Origin: a virus
Strand: one strand, 5' to 3'
IMG/VR virus record: IMGVR_UViG_3300042924_005066
Coordinates: 1-25,281 of that record
DNA: 25,281 nt
Each line of letters begins with the position of its first letter. Position 1 is the first letter of the stretch. This document shows, one piece after another, positions 2,958 through 25,281 of this stretch. The notes under the pieces are model-generated. The model searched no databases, was not told the DNA's origin, and saw nothing but the letters and a program-made list of their open reading frames with translations. Both the position numbers and the translations under genes were made by a program.

Positions 2958-3415
2958 TGGCACACCGTTTTCGAGACGTTGATCTTTCCGCAGTTACCGT
3001 AGAGAACTGCGAGGAGTCCCTACCGGAATCATTGTTCCGGCAACTGGAGATGTTCTTGCCTCCCGAGGGCTCTTTCGACGACGGATGCCTGCGTCGATAC
3101 CTCGAAAACTTAAAAAACTATGAAGAAGAGGACGCCAATTCCAATATGACGCTAGCAAATCGCTTGCGGCTGGCGTTCCGTGACATGAGGCCCGACACAA
3201 TCTGTGGCAAATTCCCCCAGGCTGAATTGCCCCTCAAGCGTCGTCTCCGTTGTGTGGCCGAATATCTTATCAGGTCTGGTGAGTTGGATAAAGTACGCGA
3301 TGCGGAAGGAAAACTGATAAAAAAACGTGGCGTACTTGGCAAAATGGTCGTTTTATACCAGCCGACCGATAAACTGATTGAATCATTGGCCCGGCAGGGT
3401 TTGTTAGACGCATGA
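2957..3415 (+). CDS. hypothetical protein, possibly winged-helix
   Basis: A 152-residue protein I do not recognise. It is charged and mostly helical. Residues 1-55 are acidic. Residues about 65-120 (LANRLRLAFRDM, LPLKRRLRCVAEYLIRSGELDK) are basic and helical, and residues 120-152 contain a beta hairpin (KKRGVLGKMVVLYQPTDK) and a terminal helix. Helices followed by a basic hairpin resemble a winged helix, so DNA binding is conceivable but unproven. The start overlaps the previous stop by one base, and the end overlaps the next gene by four bases (ATGA), so the three genes are likely translated together from one early-type transcript. Confidence 0.6.
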   Translation: MAHRFRDVDLSAVTVENCEESLPESLFRQLEMFLPPEGSFDDGCLRRYLENLKNYEEEDANSNMTLANRLRLAFRDMRPDTICGKFPQAELPLKRRLRCVAEYLIRSGELDKVRDAEGKLIKKRGVLGKMVVLYQPTDKLIESLARQGLLDA

Positions 3416-3798
3416 ATCGCAGGGAAAAACTGATCGCATCCGTCATTGGCCCTGAGATGGATGAGACGAAAGCCAAAATGCTTGATGCAACAATCAAGTT
3501 AATTCTTGGTGATATGGGTGAGCACTACTCCAAGATGTGGGATGCCGAGGGCCCAGGCGTCATGGTGTTCCAGCCCGAGAATTTATCGCGGTCCATGTTC
3601 TTCCTGACCCTCAAGGAACTCCACGCCGCACAAGAGGAGTGCGAACGGGACAACGATGGAGATATGGCGGAGACATTCCGGCGAATCTTGCAGGCAGCGC
3701 AGAAGATTGACCCACAAGAAAAGGCAGGATACCTCATCAATGACAAGACTGGCCTTCGTTACTGCGAAGTGGACTACAACGCAGCTGCTGAGAGCTGA
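3412..3798 (+). CDS. hypothetical protein
   Basis: A 128-residue, Met- and Glu-rich, predominantly helical protein. It starts in an ATGA overlap with the upstream stop and ends in a TGATG overlap with the methyltransferase-like gene. No signal peptide, membrane segment, Cys cluster or catalytic motif is seen. The segment LKELHAAQEECERDNDGDMAE is a probable amphipathic helix. The tight coupling suggests that it works with its neighbours in takeover of the host or in nucleic-acid metabolism, but nothing in the sequence names a function. Confidence 0.55.
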   Translation: MNRREKLIASVIGPEMDETKAKMLDATIKLILGDMGEHYSKMWDAEGPGVMVFQPENLSRSMFFLTLKELHAAQEECERDNDGDMAETFRRILQAAQKIDPQEKAGYLINDKTGLRYCEVDYNAAAES

Positions 3799-4385
3799 TG
3801 CCGATTCAAAATATTAAGTCTCACGCGGAAGACCGTGAGCTGATCACCAACCAGGACTTGGTCGCATCGGCGCATGCACTCCTGGAGGGCATCGATCTGG
3901 ACGTTGCCAGCTCCAAGGTGGCTAATCAGTACGTCGAAGCAAAGGAATATTTCACTCCATCGGATGATGGGTTGAATTGCCAGCAGTGGTTCGGTAGTGT
4001 CTACTTGTTTCCGCCCAGTGGTACCTACTTTTGGGAACGGAAGAACCAACGGTGGAAGATGACGCGCTCAACGTCACCTACATTGACCTCTTCCCATGCC
4101 GTCTGGTTTCGAAAATTGTATAGATCGTGGATGGCCCGCGAGATCAAACAAGGCCTTTACTTTACGAATTGCCCGGACATGATCCGGTACGAACAAAAGC
4201 TGTTCGATTTTCCTGTCTGCATTCTCCGTACGGCCCCAACATTGCTCAAAAATACGAGCAATGGCGTTAGCAGACATAAGACCTGCACATCGTTTTTGGT
4301 CTATTTGCCACCGATGGAATCAGCCACGGAAGCAACCGAGCGTTTTCTTGATATTTATTCAGAAAAGGGCCGCATTCTCTACTAA
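3798..4385 (+). CDS. Dam-like N6-adenine methyltransferase-fold protein with degenerate motif
   Basis: This 195-residue protein resembles phage N-6-adenine methyltransferases (Dam family). The block at about 33-75 (DLDVASSKVANQYV, AKEYFTPSDDGLNCQQW, VYLFPPSGTYFW) follows the family layout, in which Asp/Ala-rich SAM-binding residues precede a motif IV of DPPY or NPPY type. Here that catalytic motif reads L-F-P-P-S-G, without the leading Asp/Asn and the Tyr. The C-terminal part (GLYFTNCPDMIRY, FDFPVCILRTAP) also fits the fold. Either this is a divergent active enzyme or a catalytically dead relative acting by binding. Its place next to dCTP deaminase fits DNA metabolism or protection from host restriction. 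The start overlaps the upstream stop by one base. Confidence 0.6.
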   Translation: MPIQNIKSHAEDRELITNQDLVASAHALLEGIDLDVASSKVANQYVEAKEYFTPSDDGLNCQQWFGSVYLFPPSGTYFWERKNQRWKMTRSTSPTLTSSHAVWFRKLYRSWMAREIKQGLYFTNCPDMIRYEQKLFDFPVCILRTAPTLLKNTSNGVSRHKTCTSFLVYLPPMESATEATERFLDIYSEKGRILY

Positions 4386-4417
4386 TTTTGTATACTGAAA
4401 AACGATTGAAGGCGACC

Positions 4418-5005
4418 ATGACGGTTCTTGCGGATTGGCAGATCAAGACCCTGGCAGAAGAAGAGGGCATGATTTCACCGTTCGTGGATCATGTCGTCAG
4501 CGAAGAAGACGGACGGCGCCTTTTGAGCTATGGGCTTAGCTCCTATGGCTACGACATCCGCCTTTCGCCCAGTCAATGCTTGATCTTTGGAAAAGTCCAG
4601 GCTGGTGACTGCGATCCCAAAGACTTTGATCCAGACATTCTTAAGCCTGCTGAATTACTGGAAGACGAAAGAGGCCAATATTTTCTTTTGCCTCCCTATG
4701 GCTATTGCTTAGGCGTAGCACGGGAGCGCCTGAAACTTCCCCGTGACGTGACTGTTGTTGCGGTTGGTAAGTCGACGTACGCTCGCTCGGGAATCCTTGT
4801 GAATATCACTCCAGCTGAAAGTGGCTGGGAAGGCTACCTCACGCTGGAGATCAGTAACTGCACCGGGCTTTTTAACCGGATCTACGCAAATGAAGGCATC
4901 ACCCAGCTCTTGTTTTATCGCGGGGCTCCCTGTGAAGTGAGCTACCAAGATCGCAAGGGTAAGTACCAAGATCAACCCCCCGAGGTTGTGTTGTCTCAGG
5001 TGTGA
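4418..5005 (+). CDS. dcd: dCTP deaminase
   Basis: A 195-residue enzyme of the trimeric dCTP deaminase/dUTPase superfamily. It converts dCTP to dUTP, feeding thymidylate synthesis for phage DNA. Visible family blocks are SSYGYDIRLS (about 41-50, nucleotide site), VGKSTYARSGI (about 116-126, the counterpart of the GRSSLAR phosphate-binding motif) and TPAESGWEGYLTLEISN (131-147), in which Glu144 corresponds to the catalytic glutamate. Length is normal for the family. I chose ATG 4418 because GAAGG lies six to seven bases upstream; an in-frame TTG at 4388 would add ten residues. It ends exactly where the convergent minus-strand gene ends, with no intergenic base. A TATACT box at 4391-4396 is a weak candidate -10 but has no good -35. 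Confidence 0.9.
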   Translation: MTVLADWQIKTLAEEEGMISPFVDHVVSEEDGRRLLSYGLSSYGYDIRLSPSQCLIFGKVQAGDCDPKDFDPDILKPAELLEDERGQYFLLPPYGYCLGVARERLKLPRDVTVVAVGKSTYARSGILVNITPAESGWEGYLTLEISNCTGLFNRIYANEGITQLLFYRGAPCEVSYQDRKGKYQDQPPEVVLSQV

Positions 5006-5380
5006 TCAGGCAAAAGATTTGCCGAAGCGTGGCTGAGGTTTATTGGCATAGTTGGTACTACCGGCGGTACCAATAGTGTCCCCAAGGCTGGGAAGTTCAG
5101 TACCATCGATAAACGCTGGATTACGTGGAGTTTTTCCACGGATTGTCGGCTCAGCAATCCCAGCTCGTTGACGGTATGTCCCAGCGGTCTTTGCGGCCCG
5201 CATGAATTTGGCAACACGCTCTTGTTTGTCATTCGTGGGTTCAATTACAGACTGCTCATCGTCTTCTAAACGACGCAAATCTGTGTCATAAATCTTTTCA
5301 GGATGTAGATCAGATACTTCAACACCTGAGGATCCAGAGTCGTGCCTGGGATCGTAGGTGGAATCAAAGAAATTTGCCAT
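5006..5380 (-). CDS. hypothetical polar protein
   Basis: A 124-residue polar protein starting MANFFDSTYDPRHDSG. It has an acidic N-terminus (VSDLHPEKIYDTDLRRLEDDEQ), a basic helical middle (KQERVAKFMRAAKTAGTYRQ) and a low-complexity Gly/Thr/Asn-rich C-terminus. There is no membrane segment or known motif. I use the ATG at 5378-5380; the frame extends nine codons further to a TTG, but that would be an unusual start. The gene is convergent with dcd (stops abut) and divergent from 5420-5770, leaving 39 A/T-rich bases that must hold promoter elements for both. The composition suggests a disordered accessory or virion protein, but the function is unknown. Confidence 0.6.
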   Translation of the reverse strand: MANFFDSTYDPRHDSGSSGVEVSDLHPEKIYDTDLRRLEDDEQSVIEPTNDKQERVAKFMRAAKTAGTYRQRAGIAEPTIRGKTPRNPAFIDGTELPSLGDTIGTAGSTNYANKPQPRFGKSFA

Positions 5381-5419
5381 AGTATTATTGTAAAAGGAAT
5401 AAATCAAGCCTTAGATATC

Positions 5420-5770
5420 ATGCATAACCAAGCCGCCGCGTTCTTGGATGCGTTTGTCGAAGATGAGGTGAAGTGTCGGTGCCTGGATCAAGACCAAGAC
5501 TTCGGTGCACCCATCGATAACCAAGAGAATGATGTTCCGTTGTACGATATGTACAATCGTGGACTGACGGCATGCGAGCAGGGACTGGAACGGAATCCGC
5601 TCAACATCGAGGGAATGGATCGTCCCGGAGTGACCGGTTACATTCCTTCGATGGAACAGGGTCTGGGGATGGGAGCAGCACCGAAGCCCCGGTCTCTGGT
5701 ACTGGAACTGGAAGGTCCAACGGAGGAAATGAAGGAGGAGTCCTTGAAAAGGCGTGGTTTGCGCCGGTAG
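5420..5770 (+). CDS. hypothetical N-terminal part of a DUF3310 protein (zero frame)
   Basis: 116 residues from ATG 5420, ending at TAG 5768-5770. The N-terminal 50 residues are acidic (FLDAFVEDEVKC, FGAPIDNQENDVPLYDMYNRG). The rest is linker-like (Gly/Pro, then EGPTEEMKEESLKRRGLRR). It does not resemble a complete known domain. The -1 frame continues past the stop into an obvious DUF3310 domain that has no good start codon of its own, and the splice would give about 214 residues, close to T7 gp1.7 (a DUF3310-containing nucleotide kinase). I infer that this is the first half of a frameshifted or broken gene. An AAGGA sits 21 bases before the ATG, too far for a normal ribosome site, so the start is uncertain. 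Confidence 0.55.
   Translation: MHNQAAAFLDAFVEDEVKCRCLDQDQDFGAPIDNQENDVPLYDMYNRGLTACEQGLERNPLNIEGMDRPGVTGYIPSMEQGLGMGAAPKPRSLVLELEGPTEEMKEESLKRRGLRR
5731..5752 (+). other. candidate -1 frameshift site
   Basis: A strong Shine-Dalgarno-like string (GAAGGAGGAG, 5731-5740) has no start codon at a suitable distance in the downstream frame. It lies six bases before an A-run, read in the zero frame as TTG-AAA-AGG and in the -1 frame as GAA-AAG. An internal Shine-Dalgarno upstream of an A-run is the stimulator arrangement known from bacterial dnaX. The heptamer is not a canonical X-XXY-YYZ, so a real indel mutation or sequence error is equally possible. Confidence 0.35.
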
Positions 5771-6063: not shown

Positions 6064-6353
6064 AAGGGCTGGTACTCGTCTTCTTCGCTGTCCTCGTCGT
6101 CGTCCATCAAGCAAGCGGCGGCGAGTTCACACAGTTCTAAATCAGTGGGAAGATCCCAATCCAACTCAATATTTTCATCGGCCAAGATGGCTTTTACTGC
6201 GTGCCACTCCATGAGCCGTTGGTGGTACAGGTTCAGTAAAGCAGCGTATAACTCATCCCAGGTCATCTCCTGGGCTGTGAGTTCTGCTTTCCGCATGGAA
6301 AACTGCAATTCCAGTGGAAGTTGAAATTCACGGGGTTCGACTGAACGCTCCAT
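6060..6353 (-). CDS. nblA: NblA-like phycobilisome degradation adaptor
   Basis: A 97-residue protein. Residues about 10-58 (FQLPLELQFSMRKAEL, then MTWDELYAALLNLYHQRLM and HAVKAIL) follow the NblA pattern: a first helix with L-E-x-x-F-x-x-R, then a longer helix around an L-L-x-L-x-x-Q-like core ending with a charged surface. In cyanobacteria NblA brings Clp protease to phycobilisomes so that the antenna is degraded. Phage copies are known from Microcystis phage Ma-LMM01 and from an uncultured marine cyanophage. This protein is longer than host NblA (about 60 residues), owing to an extra C-terminal region (LPTDLELCELAAACL) and an acidic tail (DDDEDSEEDE). It is transcribed opposite the DUF3310 gene and 35 bases downstream of the endolysin gene, suggesting late or middle expression. 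The family call is from pattern recognition. Confidence 0.7.
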   Translation of the reverse strand: MERSVEPREFQLPLELQFSMRKAELTAQEMTWDELYAALLNLYHQRLMEWHAVKAILADENIELDWDLPTDLELCELAAACLMDDDEDSEEDEYQPF

Positions 6354-6388
6354 TCCACTTTGCAGGTCTTGTTCTAATTATTCTAAGC

Positions 6389-7048
6389 CTAGGTAGTAAA
6401 TATGGCGTCCAGCTCTTCTTGGCTGAATTCATCCCAGGGACGATCCGTGATCTGGAAATCGTTGGCAAACTTAGACAGAACATACGGGCTGATGTTTTCT
6501 TCCAGTTCGCGGATTGCCCGTACTTCATGCGGAGCAGCGCTGTAATTCCTAAATGCGGCTAGTAAAATTTGTGTGGATGCCCAGGGATTTGCATCTACTT
6601 CCTGGAGGAACAAGTCGACTTCTTCCCTACGCCGATCCAGGAGACCGCCGATAACTTTGTGTTCGGCATCAAAGATCCAACTGGACATTTCCTGTGTCGC
6701 CATGCAGAAGTCCTCTGCTTCAATGGCGTCGATTACGGAGCTGTACAGGAAGGGCTGCCATCCAATTGAGTGGATGAATGAAATCAATGCCTGCCGCATG
6801 CAGGGATCAAGACCAAGATTGAGCTTAGTCAGCTGACTGTCAATGATTTGCACTTCGTAGAACAAGTGTTGCAAGGCTTTTTCTTTGCTGCAACACTGCC
6901 CTTGCTTAACAGGAGAGCCGTCTGGGTAATACTGAGTGCCGTAACCAATGGTGTAAGGTTCACCACCAGTGGTTAAGTCTGGGTACGCCTTTTCGCTGAA
7001 ACCTTCGTACTTGCGAATTAAGTTAATCGCATGCGAAAAGTCGGACAT
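6389..7048 (-). CDS. GH24-type endolysin (phage lysozyme)
   Basis: This 219-residue protein has an N-terminal phage lysozyme domain, about residues 1-150. It hydrolyses peptidoglycan for host lysis. The catalytic triad region is visible: Glu15 in IRKYEGF, Asp24 in AYPDLTTGG and Thr33 in PYTIGYGTQ, the E-(8)-D-(n)-T arrangement of T4 lysozyme with a slightly longer loop. Later conserved parts include QALISFIHSIGW and IGGLLDRRREEVDLFL. Residues about 150-219 are a C-terminal extension of unknown role ending in an acidic stretch. There is no signal peptide, so export would need a holin. The ATG at 7046-7048 has no Shine-Dalgarno but directly follows a perfect stem-loop, which suggests translational control. 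Confidence 0.88.
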   Translation of the reverse strand: MSDFSHAINLIRKYEGFSEKAYPDLTTGGEPYTIGYGTQYYPDGSPVKQGQCCSKEKALQHLFYEVQIIDSQLTKLNLGLDPCMRQALISFIHSIGWQPFLYSSVIDAIEAEDFCMATQEMSSWIFDAEHKVIGGLLDRRREEVDLFLQEVDANPWASTQILLAAFRNYSAAPHEVRAIRELEENISPYVLSKFANDFQITDRPWDEFSQEELDAIFTT

Positions 7049-7071
7049 GGGGGTAACACTTTATTACCCCC
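7049..7071 (-). promoter_or_regulatory. stem-loop abutting the endolysin start codon
   Basis: A perfect 8-bp inverted repeat (GGGGGTAA / TTACCCCC) with a 7-nt loop ends at the base immediately before the endolysin ATG. In the message the five C residues touch AUG. No U-tract follows, so it is not a normal terminator. It could block ribosome entry, as the early-transcript hairpin does at T4 gene e, or mark an mRNA processing site. Confidence 0.55.
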
Positions 7072-7087
7072 AATCATACACAAAATT

Positions 7088-7213
7088 TTATTTACCTTGC
7101 CCGCGCATTTTTTTGCGTCCGTGATTAGGAAGGCTGTGTTGACCCTGGCCTTGACGCGTTTTCTTGGGCTTGGACTCAAGTTTGACGGATGAAGATGATT
7201 TGGGTTTTGCCAT
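7088..7213 (-). CDS. small very basic protein
   Basis: A 41-residue ORF from ATG 7211-7213 to TAA 7088-7090, beginning MAKPKSSSSVKLESK and ending HGRKKMRGQGK. It has about 13 Lys/Arg against one Glu, with many Gly and Gln, so it is probably disordered and nucleic-acid binding. It resembles tiny basic proteins I recall from marine cyanophages (PKKTRQG.....PNHGRK....GQG pattern). It sits 18 bases after another basic protein on the same strand and just before the endolysin. A role in DNA condensation or packaging is an inference. Confidence 0.55.
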   Translation of the reverse strand: MAKPKSSSSVKLESKPKKTRQGQGQHSLPNHGRKKMRGQGK

Positions 7214-7231
7214 GACAGGAGTGAGTTGGCG

Positions 7232-7531
7232 CTACCACTTTACTTTGTGGGACCAGTACCTGGCAGACATGATGTCGGGGTTCGAATCTTGGGCGTTATG
7301 TCTTGCGTAATATGACTTTTTCCTTGCTTTTTCTTTGGCACTGGTCGGATTTTTCCCAGCGCCCTCAACGCCCTGTTGGCCGAACCGAATAATCTTTTCC
7401 TCTCCTCCCTTGCAGGCTTTGACAACATGGGACTTGGTGGGATGCCCAGGTGTACGGCGAGGCTTGTTACACGCCATTTTGTCCTTAGCAATCTTGGCTG
7501 CAGCCGCTGCTTTTTTATGTTTTTCAGCCAT
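7232..7531 (-). CDS. DUF6321-like small basic protein
   Basis: A 99-residue basic protein. After an Ala/Lys-rich helix (1-20) comes a conserved-looking core: KPRRTPGHPTKSHVVKACKGG, KIIRFGQQGVEGAGKNP, KARKKSYYARHN and a C-terminal MSARYWSHKVKW. This order (RTPGHPTKSHVVK, IRFGQQG, ARH, YW..KVKW) matches what I remember as DUF6321, found in phages and large eukaryotic viruses; the match is from memory. The function is unknown; the positive charge and short length suggest nucleic-acid contact. Its ATG overlaps the stop of the 855-residue gene (TAATG), so it is co-translated with a virion-type protein. Confidence 0.6.
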   Translation of the reverse strand: MAEKHKKAAAAAKIAKDKMACNKPRRTPGHPTKSHVVKACKGGEEKIIRFGQQGVEGAGKNPTSAKEKARKKSYYARHNAQDSNPDIMSARYWSHKVKW

Positions 7532-17704: not shown

Positions 17705-18505
17705 TCAGCTAACTGTGCGACCGGTCAGATAGCCGTCGATATCTTCGTAGCCAGGAGCTTCGTCCGGCTGGACGTAGCACACTTCAACCACGAGGTAACC
17801 AGTGCGACTGGCAGATGCATCACCACTGGAGATGTAGAAACCACCGGAAGTGGTCAGGCCAGTGGTGGTGCCACGGGCGAACACCTTGAAGGTGGTAGCG
17901 GCAGTCACCTGATAGTTCACCACGGAACCGGAAACGCCAGCAGCACCGGTAGCGGTGAGGAAAGCGTTGGTGCTATAAGCAGCCGAGCCACCAGCGAAGA
18001 AGACTTCGCCGGGCTGGGAGCCGGAGGTGGTAGAAGCCAGGTTGGCCTGAGCCACAGATTCACCAACGCCTGTGGAAGCCACAGGACCGCTGGAATCGCG
18101 GCAGAAGCTGATCACGTTACCGGTAGCGGCATACACACCGGAAGCCACACGACCGTCGCCCCAGCCAGAAGCCACGGATACGGTAGCGCGATACACATAA
18201 GCAGGCAGGGTGGCACTACCAGAGATCACCATGCCGGTGATGTCGGGGCGGGTGTCGTCCTGGCGGTAAGGCGAAGGAACGATCACGTTGCCGGTGCCGA
18301 TTGCGCCGCCACCAGAGGTAGCGTTCACGGGCACATAGCCACGCTGCTGGAAGTAGCGGTAGCCAGGGATGGCCAGCACCGAAGTGGGGCCACCCTTGGA
18401 ACCATCATTAACACCTGCGTAGTCGGCATCAATGTTCTTGTACCAACCGTTCAGGGGCTCTGCCCAGTTACCGGGGTAGATTTTCTTAGCAGACAAATAG
18501 GTCAT
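17705..18505 (-). CDS. probable capsid decoration/second major virion protein
   Basis: 266 residues, Gly/Ser/Thr/Ala-rich with many short beta strands, beginning MTYLSAKKIYPGNWAEPL. It shares with the capsid gene a visibly GC-rich, regular codon choice that suggests very high expression. The C-terminus (YLVVEVCYVQPDEAPGYEDIDGYL) looks globular. It lies 36 bases downstream of the capsid gene. Such a small beta-rich protein right after the capsid gene is typical of decoration proteins, or could be a major tail protein. AGGA about nine bases before the ATG supports the start. Confidence 0.6.
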   Translation of the reverse strand: MTYLSAKKIYPGNWAEPLNGWYKNIDADYAGVNDGSKGGPTSVLAIPGYRYFQQRGYVPVNATSGGGAIGTGNVIVPSPYRQDDTRPDITGMVISGSATLPAYVYRATVSVASGWGDGRVASGVYAATGNVISFCRDSSGPVASTGVGESVAQANLASTTSGSQPGEVFFAGGSAAYSTNAFLTATGAAGVSGSVVNYQVTAATTFKVFARGTTTGLTTSGGFYISSGDASASRTGYLVVEVCYVQPDEAPGYEDIDGYLTGRTVS

Positions 18506-18541: not shown

Positions 18542-19705
18542 TCAGATGTCGCCATCATCTTGAACGAAGCTGTAGGCGGTAGTCACGAAGTCCTTGTTCA
18601 GGATTTCGAAGCCAGCGTACAGTTGCCAGATCAGGATGATGAAGCGGCTGAAGTCGTCGTTGTTGTTGATGAGCACCTGAGCGTTCGGGCCGCCGATGCC
18701 AACACCGATGGACTGAGGACCGAAGAAGTAGCCTTGGGCAACTTCCTTGGAAGCGTAGGCGGAACCACCATCGAAAGAGGCGGTCACGTTCTTGATCGGG
18801 AAGTTGGTCGACTCGTAGAACTTAACGCCTTCAAACTGAACGCCGGTGGGCATCACGGGTTCACCAGCCAGGAAGTAAGCCTGACCAGCTTGGGGACCCA
18901 TGTAGAAGCTGGCGTTGTTAGGCATCATGGGGTTGCCCATGTACATGCCTTGGCCAGGGTTGCCGCTGTAGCGGGCGATCTCACGGAAGTCAGGATCACG
19001 ACGCAGGTGCATCATGAAGGTAGGATCGCAGATGCAGCGATACAGACCATCAGCGAAAGTGGGGACGTTGCGCTTACGCAGGTCCTTGACCACGGTCAAC
19101 AGGTCGGTACGCACCTGGAACTGCTGCACTTCATTGCCGTACTCGGCGGTGCTGTAAGACACGCGACCAGAAGAGTCTTTGGTCTTACCACCAGCGAAAT
19201 AGTAACCGCCCTGGGTGGAGGAAGCGGCACCATTGGCTTCAGCTTTAGAGAGTTCGTCAATAAAGACGCGGTCGCGCCAACGGCGATAGTCGTCGAGCAG
19301 GGTCAGCGAACCGATGCTCTGGTGGAACATGTTCAGGTTGCCGGTGTCCAGCAGCAGGCGCTGGGCGGTAACCAGGGTTTCACGAGCAATTTTGAAGGTG
19401 CTGGGCTGGGTCGGATCGCCCGGGTCCGCAGGACCGGTGTATTCCTTCAGCACAACAAGCACCTTCTCCTTGGTGATGTTGCGGCTGTTGGCAGTACCGA
19501 TGGTCTGGTCAGCGATGCGCTCACGGCTGTCCTTAGTACCAGGGGTACCCCAGAACTTGTAGCGATCCAGCTGAACGGTTTGACCAGGCTGACGGGTGAA
19601 GTCGTGGACTACCACGGGCTCAACCGCCATTTCAGCGATGTAAGCAGGATGGGGACGGTAGAGCTCCGCACCTAAAATCTTTGGAAAATCGTTATCAATG
19701 AACAC
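18542..19705 (-). CDS. major capsid protein (HK97-like fold)
   Basis: 387 residues beginning MFIDNDFPKILGAELYRP. It has a flexible N-arm, then an alpha/beta body with FKIARETLVTAQRLLLD (spine-helix-like), VPTFADGLYRCICDPTFMMHLRRDPDFREIARYSG, which resembles the DG-Y...P....L..D..F motif of N4/gp56-like capsids, and VGIGGPNAQVLINNNDDFSR near the C-terminus. It lies downstream of portal and scaffold in the usual order. The start is GTG with GGAGGA nine to ten bases upstream. The GC-rich, strongly biased codons suggest high expression and create a long antisense open frame that I reject as a gene. Fold assignment is by context and motif. Confidence 0.85.
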   Translation of the reverse strand: MFIDNDFPKILGAELYRPHPAYIAEMAVEPVVVHDFTRQPGQTVQLDRYKFWGTPGTKDSRERIADQTIGTANSRNITKEKVLVVLKEYTGPADPGDPTQPSTFKIARETLVTAQRLLLDTGNLNMFHQSIGSLTLLDDYRRWRDRVFIDELSKAEANGAASSTQGGYYFAGGKTKDSSGRVSYSTAEYGNEVQQFQVRTDLLTVVKDLRKRNVPTFADGLYRCICDPTFMMHLRRDPDFREIARYSGNPGQGMYMGNPMMPNNASFYMGPQAGQAYFLAGEPVMPTGVQFEGVKFYESTNFPIKNVTASFDGGSAYASKEVAQGYFFGPQSIGVGIGGPNAQVLINNNDDFSRFIILIWQLYAGFEILNKDFVTTAYSFVQDDGDI

Positions 19706-19837: not shown

Positions 19838-20797
19838 TCACTCCATCACAAACAGTTTGTTAGCAACTGTTTGAGGTTGCGCTTGGTTCAGAACGCGCCA
19901 GGCATTCTGGGGATCACGAGCCATCATCTCACTGAAGTTGCCCCAGAAGTTTTCGGGGGCCTGAGGAGCAGCGGCAGCCGGGGGAGCGGGCAGCTGACCC
20001 AGTTGAGGCTGAGCCACGGCTTGGGTAGGATAGCCGCGAGTCTCCAGTTGAGCTTCGTTTTCGTACACGGGATAGGGACCTTCAGGACCGAAGAATTTCA
20101 GCGTGTAATCGCTGAGCACGTCGGGGTTGGTCAGAATTTCGTTGTAAGCCAGGTTCTCCTGGTGCTCGTTGACAGAGAACTCGGCGTAGCCTTTGATCGT
20201 GTCAGCGGCGCGGTTTCCCCACGCGACGGCGCTGTCCAGCATTTGCTCCAGGTTTAGAGCGTAGTTGTTCAGCAGAGCCGGAGCTTCGATCCCGAACGCG
20301 TCCATCACCTGACGGCTTTCCTGGCTCATTCCCACCAGGTCCGCGATTTGCTCCAAGGAGGGAGTCGAGGAAGTTTGGGAAGAGCTGGGCGAGTATGCCG
20401 GGCTGGGAGACCAGGTCTGCGGAGCCGATTGTTGCGTAGCTTGGCTGCTGGGCTGTCCGTAATTGGCCGGGGTAAACTGAGTCGTCGCTGGATACTGTTG
20501 ACCCTGGAACGGGGATTGGACTGGTGCGCTCAGCAGGTTCACCACCTTGTTGAACGCCGATTCCCAAGGATTCCCCTGAGGTGCCTCCGGTTGGGATTGG
20601 GGGGCGTACTGAGTAGGGGCTGATTGGTAGCTGGGGGCCGCCTGAGGCACCGCTTGGGGGTAGCTGGTACCCACCTGATAAGCCACTGGAGCCTGCGCCG
20701 GAGCTGCCTGCGGTGCTGCCACCACGTAGCTGCTCGGAGCGACGGCCACTGGTGCTTGGCTCGTCTGTGGGATCGATTGGACGGTAGCGTCCTGCAT
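19838..20797 (-). CDS. capsid assembly scaffold protein
   Basis: 319 residues. The N-terminal two thirds are Pro/Gln/Ala/Ser low-complexity (for example VAAPQAAPAQAPVAYQ). The C-terminal third is helical with conserved-looking segments (SLEQIADLVGMSQESRQVMDAFG, GNRAADTIKGYAEFSVNEHQEN, ILTNPDVLSDYTLKFFG) typical of internal scaffolds. Position between portal and capsid supports this; it would direct procapsid assembly and be expelled. The ATG is supported by AAAAGGAGATGAGTT upstream. Its first 596 bases overlap the 3' end of the portal frame in another register, an unusually long overlap. Confidence 0.8.
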   Translation of the reverse strand: MQDATVQSIPQTSQAPVAVAPSSYVVAAPQAAPAQAPVAYQVGTSYPQAVPQAAPSYQSAPTQYAPQSQPEAPQGNPWESAFNKVVNLLSAPVQSPFQGQQYPATTQFTPANYGQPSSQATQQSAPQTWSPSPAYSPSSSQTSSTPSLEQIADLVGMSQESRQVMDAFGIEAPALLNNYALNLEQMLDSAVAWGNRAADTIKGYAEFSVNEHQENLAYNEILTNPDVLSDYTLKFFGPEGPYPVYENEAQLETRGYPTQAVAQPQLGQLPAPPAAAAPQAPENFWGNFSEMMARDPQNAWRVLNQAQPQTVANKLFVME

Positions 20798-22547
20798 AAC
20801 TCATCTCCTTTTGTAAGGCTTCTAAAGTGCGATACAGATATGGGGTCAAATCCAATCGCGGGTCCGCAGCCATCGGTAAATCCGGTGATTGCGGGTGGGG
20901 GGTCTGCATCATTCCTCCCACTAAGCGAGCGAAAGCAGAGTATGCACCCTGTAATTCGTTCACCATTCTGAACGGGAACCCAGATAGCATCTCGGCCCGT
21001 TCCTCATCCGTTTTAGACGGAAAGAGGTATTTCAGTGCCTCAATGCTATCAACACCTAATTCTTGCAGATTTCGAACAACAATGGAGTTGTTGAGAATAT
21101 CTTGGGTGGAATCTTCGTAAACAGGACCCAACCAACGCCACTGAACGGTGACATCACCATCGGGAATAAGGCCTAAAACACCAGGAGGAATCTGCTGGGT
21201 ACGCAGACAAGCCATCATCAACTGCTTGACTTGATCTTCAAACATGCCCATGGCATCTTCGTAGGCAACAAAGTCTTCAGGCGTTGCTGTCTCTGGTAAT
21301 TCCAGGGGCTTTTCAAGACCTGCAGCAGCGGCCAGGGTGTCACGGAAAAGACGTTCTTCTTGGAAAATAATCAGTTCCAAACAACGGCAAATGCCATAGG
21401 TATAAATAGAAATTGCTTTTTTCTTGGATGTTGCAGAAACACGTCCAAACAAAGATTTGTATTCAGTTGCAGTAACACCTGCAGAAATTGAGAGTTCATC
21501 AACGCCACCAAGGGCGGTACGGATTTCCTCTCGATACTGGCGTGCAAAAGAATTTTGGTCACCAGTGATGGCGTCAGGGACGATATAACCAACTCGGTCG
21601 TTTGGCTCCAGGTTGGCAATGATGCGTGGAACGCGGAGCTGACCATCAACACCGCGATAGACGGGATCTGCTTTGAAGCGTGACTGACTCAGAGCACCAC
21701 CGCCCATGAAACCAGAGTTAGCTGCAATAGACGGACGCTGGACAACGGTTTCGCCACCGGACTCCATTAGGTCTGTCTTGGGACGAGACGAAAGCAGTGT
21801 TGGGTTACCAAAGAACTGAACGTTCTTACGCATGGTGCGAACCATTTCGTCATGCGTACAGATGTGATTGGCTAACGCATCGAATTCACCAACGCCCTCT
21901 GTCGAGAAGCCCTTAGCGTTGTTAAAGATTTCAACGCAGGGAATAAAACCAAGAGTATTTTTAAATGTTTTTGTGCGGCCAGGGACAGATTGGTAGTTGG
22001 TGTCGAAAGAAATCTCGCCTTCAGAATGCGTTTCTTCGATTGTTTTACGTTTAATCGACAGACGGATGTAACGCTTGACGCCGCCCCGCCCCATGCCAGC
22101 CGGACCACTAAGGTTACTGACTTCAATGTCCTGCTGGAAGCCAAGACCTTGACGAACCTTATAGCTATAAATGATGACGACTTCATCTAGCTCACCGTCA
22201 ATATTGTAGAAACTTCTGTATTCGTGTTTACGGAAAAAGTAAAGACGGTAATTATTTTGCGTAGGACGGATGTAAAACAACCCCTGTCCATCACAAAGGA
22301 AATAATCCCAAACCGAATCAAGGCGCGTATCAAGTTGGTTGTATTTAATTACGCGATCAATAAAGTCTTTGCGTTGATTGCCAAAGTTGTCTTGGGCAGG
22401 AAAAAATTCGACACCCTGGCGGATGCCGAATAATTTCATCTGCGCAAGGTGTGCCGCAACGACGCCAGTATCGATTGAAGCTCCACCGTCTTTTTCGAGG
22501 TAGGAGTCAATGATTTCTTTAAGTCTGGCCTTTGCGTCCCCAGCCAT
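20202..22547 (-). CDS. portal protein
   Basis: 781 residues from ATG 22545-22547 (overlapping the upstream TGA; an in-frame TTG precedes it). Residues about 1-583 are portal-like: IIDSYLEKDGG at the N-terminus, FIDRVIKYNQLDTRLDSVWDYFLCDG, a long alpha/beta body with FRKHEYRSFYN and PNDRVGYIVPDAITGDQNSFARQYREE, and an ISIYTYGICRCLELIIFQ helix. It would form the DNA-entry ring and bind terminase. Residues 584-781 are Gly/Ser/Pro/Arg-rich low complexity (SGAGSSGLSGG, ending QRRRVGKPRR) and are encoded by the same DNA as the scaffold N-terminus in another frame. Whether that tail is translated is uncertain; a portal could end earlier only by a missed frameshift. Confidence 0.85.
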   Translation of the reverse strand: MAGDAKARLKEIIDSYLEKDGGASIDTGVVAAHLAQMKLFGIRQGVEFFPAQDNFGNQRKDFIDRVIKYNQLDTRLDSVWDYFLCDGQGLFYIRPTQNNYRLYFFRKHEYRSFYNIDGELDEVVIIYSYKVRQGLGFQQDIEVSNLSGPAGMGRGGVKRYIRLSIKRKTIEETHSEGEISFDTNYQSVPGRTKTFKNTLGFIPCVEIFNNAKGFSTEGVGEFDALANHICTHDEMVRTMRKNVQFFGNPTLLSSRPKTDLMESGGETVVQRPSIAANSGFMGGGALSQSRFKADPVYRGVDGQLRVPRIIANLEPNDRVGYIVPDAITGDQNSFARQYREEIRTALGGVDELSISAGVTATEYKSLFGRVSATSKKKAISIYTYGICRCLELIIFQEERLFRDTLAAAAGLEKPLELPETATPEDFVAYEDAMGMFEDQVKQLMMACLRTQQIPPGVLGLIPDGDVTVQWRWLGPVYEDSTQDILNNSIVVRNLQELGVDSIEALKYLFPSKTDEERAEMLSGFPFRMVNELQGAYSAFARLVGGMMQTPHPQSPDLPMAADPRLDLTPYLYRTLEALQKEMSYAGRYRPIDPTDEPSTSGRRSEQLRGGSTAGSSGAGSSGLSGGYQLPPSGASGGPQLPISPYSVRPPIPTGGTSGESLGIGVQQGGEPAERTSPIPVPGSTVSSDDSVYPGQLRTAQQPSYATIGSADLVSQPGILAQLFPNFLDSLLGANRGPGGNEPGKPSGDGRVRDRSSGSAEQLRSKPGANAGQRRRVGKPRR

Positions 22548-22693
22548 CAACTATTTGCCTTTTTATCTTTATTGATCTTAGCAGCCTTCGCTTGCTTCTT
22601 CAGGCGCAACCACTTATCAAAGAATACGAGTTCGGCAGAAGAATAAAGTTCGGGATGGTTGAGCGCTTGCTTAACAAGTTTTTTAGTTTTCAT
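22547..22693 (-). CDS. small basic protein (48 residues) upstream of portal
   Basis: A 48-residue basic protein (beginning MKTKKLVKQALNHPELYSS, ending NKDKKANS) with a central helix, ELVFFDKWLRLKKQAKAAK. Its ATG overlaps the stop of the preceding DUF5872-like fragment (ATGA), and its TGA overlaps the portal ATG (TGATG), a strong sign of a real coupled gene. No family is recognised. It may bind nucleic acid or portal. Confidence 0.55.
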   Translation of the reverse strand: MKTKKLVKQALNHPELYSSAELVFFDKWLRLKKQAKAAKINKDKKANS

Positions 22694-24591: not shown

Positions 24592-25281
24592 TTAGTAATC
24601 AATGTGCAACTGACCTTTTCTTGCAAGTCCAGTAACCAACCAAACCAACGCGTCAACGCAGTCATCATGACCACTAACGCCGAAATTTGTGAGTTCCTCG
24701 AAGAGATTTGTGAAGTTCCGGAAACGATTGAAGATTATCTTTCGATCTTCAAACATGCCCATGATTCCACGGAAACGTGCCAGCTTGTCTGCACGGAAAC
24801 CTTTGACTGGATGCCAAATCAAATTGTAGAGACCTTCGTTATTCAGGCAAACCCGTTTGAAGTCGGCTTCGAGAGAAGCTTGGTATTGGACGGCTTCTGA
24901 CCAAATATCACATGTGGAATAAGTCGGAAAATAATTTCCGCTATCATCACGTCCAATCACCGACCAATCGTTCAACAATTCTTTAAGAGCGTCCAGTTTT
25001 TCCAGGTTGCCCATGACGCGTATGCGCCTGTAATCGATGATATGAATGCGGTCGCCAATGCGTCCGCCAAGGATCATCACGGTGTAATCGTTCTTCTCTT
25101 TGGTGCCAGCAGAAAGGTCCACACCAATACCGAGCGTATCAAACTCCGTTGAAATTTCCGCTTTAACAATTAGTTCTGGCGCCAGAGAAAGCTCGTTCTG
25201 TCTGACAATTTGATTCATATATTGAAACGAGAAAGCAATTGGCGCTTGCCGTTTCTTTTCTTTGAGATAATCTAGTGACCA
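24592..25281 (-). CDS. terminase large subunit, C-terminal part (cut by window edge)
   Basis: The frame is open to the right edge, giving about 229 residues of the C-terminus (upstream residues include WSLDYLKEKKRQAPIAFSFQ). It is the RNase-H-like nuclease domain of the packaging motor. GIGVDLSAGTKEKNDYTV holds the first catalytic Asp (residue 34 counted from the Met at 25218), CDIWSEAVQYQ a Glu, and SGHDDCVDALVWLV the final acidic pair. It cuts concatemeric phage DNA and, with the missing N-terminal ATPase, drives packaging into the portal. It is followed by the small membrane protein gene after 30 bases. The Met at 25216-25218 is internal, not the gene start. Confidence 0.88.
   Translation of the reverse strand, partial: WSLDYLKEKKRQAPIAFSFQYMNQIVRQNELSLAPELIVKAEISTEFDTLGIGVDLSAGTKEKNDYTVMILGGRIGDRIHIIDYRRIRVMGNLEKLDALKELLNDWSVIGRDDSGNYFPTYSTCDIWSEAVQYQASLEADFKRVCLNNEGLYNLIWHPVKGFRADKLARFRGIMGMFEDRKIIFNRFRNFTNLFEELTNFGVSGHDDCVDALVWLVTGLARKGQLHIDY

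Follow-up and report, generated by a model that had tools for sequence, protein, structure and literature searches.

Does a stretch of 596 bases shared by two neighbouring phage head genes encode protein in both of its reading frames, or is one frame open only through the codons used in the other? The question is raised by an IMG/VR virus record of 25,281 bases (IMGVR_UViG_3300042924_005066; hereafter the window, i.e. the whole stretch of DNA analysed). It is kin of the cyanobacterium phage Synechococcus phage S-EIV1, whose isolate genome has 79,178 bases according to its record. DNA identity between the window and S-EIV1 is 77.7% across the portal gene and the second gene, with 2,713 of 2,751 bases covered. 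The head genes are transcribed from the minus strand in the order large terminase end, portal, second ORF and major head protein, with the following features:

24592-25218, minus strand: terminase large subunit, C-terminal part (PHROG 38, E 2e-24; Pfam Terminase_6C, E 9.4e-11), which sets the order of the head genes
20202-22547, minus strand: predicted portal gene, 781 codons from its ATG (PHROG 20475; Foldseek on a low-confidence model)
19838-20797, minus strand: second ORF with 319 codons, located between portal and head gene; its product is probably a scaffolding protein
20202-20797, minus strand: 596-base overlap in which the two genes use different frames (+1), from the ORF coordinates and the relatives
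20795-20815, minus strand: ribosome site inside the portal gene and ATG of the second ORF, TACAAAAGGAGATGAGTTATG, conserved in relatives
18542-19705, minus strand: major head protein, the next gene downstream (PHROG 1357 'major head protein', E 3.1e-15)

The portal gene follows the large terminase and precedes the head protein, and the second ORF lies between portal and head protein, the place of a scaffold gene in this order. Homologous portal and head proteins in matching gene order make the window a member of the S-EIV1-like phages. Among annotated phages, tblastn matched the portal core to S-EIV1 alone (E up to 5) and the head protein to S-EIV1 and two weak partial sequences. A 266-codon gene behind the head gene (17705-18505, minus strand) weakly resembles the family of the lambda head decoration protein D (Pfam PF02924, E 0.0065), scoring below that family's cut-off. 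Furthermore, a 20-base stretch of the portal gene (21233-21252) is repeated exactly in the terminase gene (24744-24763) on the same strand, possibly by chance.

The portal product matches PHROG 20475 'virion structural protein' (E 8.8e-294) over residues 3-742, thus into the part encoded by the overlap. Its AlphaFold2 model is poor (mean pLDDT 38.5), and with this model every one of the best 33 Foldseek matches in the PDB belongs to a phage portal, portal-tail or virion entry, including a portal in complex with the defence protein Avs4. Seven of the PDB matches reach an E-value of 0.001 or lower, the two best being phage E1004 (1.6e-5) and cyanophage P-SCSP1u (2.4e-5). Among the best 18 BFVD matches, 13 are named portal, connector, head-tail connecting or collar proteins and five are nameless. 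VIA-align recovers portals at Z up to 7.1, a value that according to the tool may mean a common arrangement alone; the aligned parts cover mostly residues 51-474 and scarcely extend past residue 474. A sequence search of the PDB returned one chance-level match (E 0.73). The model-based matches support the product of 20202-22547 as a portal protein. The second ORF has no Pfam or PHROG match at E 0.1, and its model (mean pLDDT 42.7) consists of a disordered N-terminal part, a long helix (171-223) and C-terminal helices (284-316). Judging from gene order and this low-confidence model, its product is probably a scaffolding protein.

The overlap was located at 20202-20797 by the original prediction, and these coordinates are exact, as is the shift of one base between the frames. 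An in-frame TTG at 22550 precedes the portal ATG, and the portal ORF from this TTG spans 20202-22550 on the minus strand (782 codons). Counted from the TTG, the second ATG starts on the second base of portal codon 585, i.e. in the +1 relation, and the portal continues for 197 codons beyond the shared codon before a TGA; the figure of 198 codons given in the prediction holds if the shared codon is counted. Both overlap products had also been described as low in complexity, which the relatives confirm. Averaged over 91 sequences, the portal tail is rich in Gly, Ser, Pro and Arg (G 17.2%, S 14.3%, P 12.6%, R 8.9%) and the N-terminal part of the second ORF in Ala, Ser, Gln and Pro (A 15.9%, S 13.5%, Q 13.5%, P 12.1%).

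A low-complexity product would agree with a by-product: the portal frame past residue 585 might be open through the GC-rich, biased codons of the second gene, its tail being translated and functionless. The interval 20001-21000 is indeed the most GC-rich kilobase of the window (0.586, the others ranging from 0.416 to 0.568). This richness alone is without power to explain the pattern described below. When the codons of the second ORF are permuted synonymously, the portal frame of the window stays open in 1.27% of 20,000 trials with 3.5 stops expected, figures that omit the native stop position. With codons redrawn from ten other gene stretches of the window it stays open in 0.01% of 10,000 trials (7.4 stops expected). 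Conversely, the second frame stays open in 0.36% of 5,000 permutations of the window's portal codons, and in 7.6% of trials with portal codons redrawn from window usage. Because of these chance rates, openness in a single sequence is only suggestive, and the relatives decide.

Loci of relatives were drawn from three viral-contig scans (the best 80 of about 600 candidates each), one genome scan, which contributed one relative, and the S-EIV1 record. The 180 fetched loci include some that are one contig taken with different flanks. Sampled relatives range from about 80% portal identity upward; among the viral-scan matches listed (best 80 each), none falls below 82% portal identity to its own query. 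The portal stop is reached by 98 distinct overlap sequences, another 15 leave their contig with both frames open, and two loci stop short of the overlap. All 98 have the second ATG at its position and an open second frame, and in 97 the portal extends beyond the shared codon by another 180-212 codons. Only L109 departs from this, its portal frame stopping after 60 codons and four codons short of its contig end. This locus, either a real variant or an assembly error, is the sole sampled relative with an early portal stop. The comparison of stop positions proposed with the original prediction thus yields no portal ending near residue 585 among the 98 sequences. For 31 representatives whose overlaps differ by more than 10%, permutation predicts 2.1-4.8 portal-frame stops per sequence and about 110 in total, and none is present. 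For a single representative the permutation chance of an open portal frame has a median of 1.3% and a maximum of 10.4%, so that one such sequence might be open by codon use, as the by-product reading supposes; the total of about 110 missing stops speaks against it. The tail also contains long conserved runs, such as YAGRYRP.DPTDEP in nearly all sequences, which speaks against a functionless tail.

The start of the second gene is likewise conserved. TACAAAAGGAGATGAGTTATG comprises 21 bases ending in ATG, with AAAGGAG seven bases ahead of the ATG. Of 130 sequences whose second gene is complete, 129 carry it unchanged and one differs at one base; the strong ribosome site that had been noted for the scaffold is confirmed. 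Ahead of the portal ATG there is only a short AAGG (judged by eye).

Selection on the two frames was estimated from a codon alignment of 91 distinct complete second genes, the window's included. Forty disjoint pairs, 3-20% apart in the portal core, use 80 of the 91 sequences and are not phylogenetically independent. For each frame, isolated differences were sorted into silent and changing ones and related to opportunity under a mutation model fitted at four-fold portal-core sites; differences with another difference within two bases were excluded from the class counts. In the overlap, portal-frame omega in the 40 pairs is 0.31 (bootstrap 0.25-0.41) for differences that leave the second frame silent and 0.21 (0.15-0.26) for those that change it, and second-frame omega in the two classes is 0.15 (0.11-0.20) and 0.10 (0.07-0.13). 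Downstream of the portal stop, in the same gene and frame, the portal-frame values are 1.11 (0.84-1.59) and 2.47 (1.39-5.7). For 28 closer pairs portal omega is 0.37 (0.22-0.73) in the overlap versus 0.88 (0.48-1.91) downstream; these intervals overlap and the estimates agree with those of the 40 pairs. In the portal core upstream of the second ATG, portal omega is 0.03, and the frame of the second gene has values of 0.79-1.06 by segment and 1.12 pooled. The third frame in the overlap has no constraint (omega 5.58, 2.02-12.95, with two doubly silent changes). The limits of constraint coincide with the second ATG and nearly with the portal stop. Because omega is low inside the overlap and about 1 in the matching frames outside, both products are selected for.

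Portal-frame stop gains number 0 versus 31.6 expected in the overlap and 78 versus 65.1 expected downstream. As the control frames are likewise depleted (67 versus 169.6 expected in the upstream control), these counts serve as support only. An antiphase pattern of conservation was also considered and is not claimed: the ratio of changes in only the second frame to changes in only the portal frame varies from 3:70 to 77:58 by bin, yet amino-acid conservation in the two frames is positively correlated (r 0.42, window 9). Codon usage, taken as a clue to which frame is the older, is as means of the 91 sequences -0.064 for the second frame, -0.012 for the portal frame and +0.09 for the second gene downstream.

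Binned along the portal, the overlap falls into two parts:

20318-20797, minus strand: part of the overlap constrained in both frames (second-ORF codons 1-160), with binned portal omega of 0.05-0.38 and second-frame omega of 0.02-0.25
20202-20317, minus strand: last ~40 portal codons, open, basic and with a variable end point, from bins, charge and stop positions

Portal omega over residues 585-745 is 0.05, 0.38, 0.16, 0.28, 0.11 and 0.22 by bin; it is 3.15 and 0.46 in the two bins of the last ~40 residues and 1.05-1.64 past the stop, all bins including, unmasked, sequences whose portal ends earlier. For the last ~40 codons no amino-acid constraint is seen in the binned omega. The last 50 portal residues carry a net charge of +4 to +10 and are basic in all 91 sequences. 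Since low portal omega within the overlap extends over residues 585-745, the proof of dual coding covers about 20318-20797, where both frames are under purifying selection while the matching frames on its flanks are not.

A by-product of GC-rich, biased codons, which the original prediction had weighed against true dual coding, is contradicted by the contrast of 0.31 in the overlap with 1.11 downstream and by low portal omega across ~160 codons; we consider it very improbable. The proposed check for constraint in the portal frame returned a clear excess, and true dual coding, with both frames open in relatives and both under purifying selection, is borne out for 20318-20797. On these sequence comparisons the overlap almost certainly codes for protein in both frames and links two head genes of an S-EIV1-like phage.

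The head gene of the same window offers a frame that behaves as a by-product should:

18560-19675, plus strand: long ORF antisense to the head gene; its S-EIV1 counterpart, in the same phase (6251-7396 of the S-EIV1 locus L003, minus strand), is annotated in part as AHV82227

The omega of this ORF is 1.12 (26 pairs, no interval), and stops break it, within its span, in 39 of 53 distinct head-gene sequences. It gains five stops versus 66 expected. It is nearly open because the head gene avoids codons that read as stops on the other strand, and so, as far as its sequence tells, it is likely a by-product of codon use. Omega separates it from the portal tail (1.12 versus 0.31).

In S-EIV1 the portal counterpart is AHV82224, which is recorded as a hypothetical protein and starts at the corresponding ATG. 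Both genes are present with an overlap of 554 bases (ORFs at 3004-5307 and 4754-5731 of the S-EIV1 locus, L003). The record differs in that AHV82224 and AHV82225 are listed as hypothetical proteins without overlap and only the 3' part of the second is kept: the full ORF of the second gene has 325 codons (L003 4754-5731, S-EIV1 59287-60264), and the record gives 59863-60264. This annotation suggests that the second gene might truly start after the portal stop, its frame inside the portal being a by-product of the portal gene, and the 7.6% of trials in which portal codons from window usage leave that frame open would agree. Second-frame omega, however, is 0.02-0.25 in all overlap bins from the first codon on, versus 0.8-1.1 upstream, and the conserved ribosome site and ATG, together with a frame open in 98 of 98 sequences, point the same way; a late start is accordingly most improbable. 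The head gene of S-EIV1 is also recorded by its 3' part alone (AHV82228), with an antisense gene annotated over the remainder. Its full ORF (L003 6326-7477, S-EIV1 60859-62010; 383 codons) has 86.3% identity to the head protein of the window over the whole length. Between second and head genes S-EIV1 has an additional annotated gene (AHV82226, L003 5736-6212), where the window has 132 bases.

Expression of the pair likely follows a scheme with one mRNA, a weak portal start and a strong internal start, and dual coding combined with this scheme is very likely. A single mRNA would bear both genes. Ribosomes starting at the weakly signalled portal ATG would traverse the overlap and append the 197-residue tail to each portal subunit; as the portal frame is uninterrupted, the tail follows whenever translation of the portal is completed, except where the ribosome shifts frame or falls off. 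Other ribosomes would begin at the strong internal site and yield the second protein, probably the scaffold, in far more than 12 copies. Tailed phages have 12 copies of the portal and need the scaffold in larger numbers. With the second frame at +1 and both frames open for about 600 bases, the geometry would also permit part of the output to be a portal-scaffold fusion made by +1 ribosomal frameshifting, which would tether scaffold to the ring. The second gene owns a conserved start, though, and the portal-frame sequence is conserved deep into the overlap, which shows that the unshifted portal is a main product; such a fusion is very improbable.

Under the scheme of two separate starts, the portal tail would be a largely disordered, Gly/Ser/Pro/Arg-rich extension with conserved short motifs. 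It would most likely start on the inner (crown) side of the portal ring and reach into the capsid; there, conserved motifs of the tail (e.g. around SYATIGSADL..QPGILAQLFPN) would touch the scaffold, and its basic end may touch DNA. The scaffold of phage P22 is seated on the portal within the procapsid (PMC12005531), which makes an inward tail touching scaffold reasonable. We offer the role of an inward arm touching scaffold or DNA tentatively, as one possibility. The contact proposed for the S-EIV1-like tail would resemble that of P22; the abstract of the P22 study mentions no overlap (PMC12005531). A further and rather doubtful reading is that the 600 shared bases specify both partners of a single assembly contact, which would place the single portal ring in the procapsid. 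The portal arm would then be slightly acidic with a basic end, and the scaffold N-terminal arm acidic and of low complexity; if so, a change on one side would be felt at once on the other. In P22, portal and scaffold form their contact as products of separate genes.

Genomes of the phiX174 type have about 5 kb. Overlapping genes are found in phages of Escherichia coli such as phiX174, whose A/K pair overlaps terminally, and it has been suggested that the constraint of overlap is relieved when one or both products are disordered (PMC8227390). The low-complexity products of both frames fit this proposal. The pairs D/E, A/K and A/B of phiX174 resemble the overlap described here in that one stretch is read in two frames and both products are used (PMC8227390); here, in contrast, the phage is a tailed dsDNA phage with an isolate genome of 79,178 bases, and the genes are a portal and a probable scaffold gene. 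In a survey of annotated virus reference genomes overlaps were common; among near-identical ones present in more than one virus family the largest, from dsDNA phages, had 185 nt (PMC7017920). The frames of the S-EIV1-like pair differ, unlike those of the lambda pair C/Nu3. There the scaffold is made from an in-frame internal start within a head gene, and one sequence serves both. Rz/Rz1 of lambda-like phages, which may be the 185-nt overlap of the survey, is an out-of-frame overlap of lysis genes in a tailed phage and is shorter. No portal-scaffold overlap of this kind was found in the titles and abstract openings of the papers listed, a body of text in which few subscription journals are covered. 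Overlapping genes are thus known as a kind, and the portal/scaffold pair and its scale are new as far as can be told.

The best-known cases of long out-of-frame dual coding come from very small viruses, and such coding is unusual in a roomy genome of ~80,000 bases. The overlap is kept across all sampled diversity, and the controls are clean on both flanks. The annotation of S-EIV1 is corrected by a gene of 325 codons that had been recorded as its 3' part alone, and annotation that avoids overlaps loses real protein sequence. The S-EIV1-like pair is a tractable case for the question why overlaps persist where space is not short.
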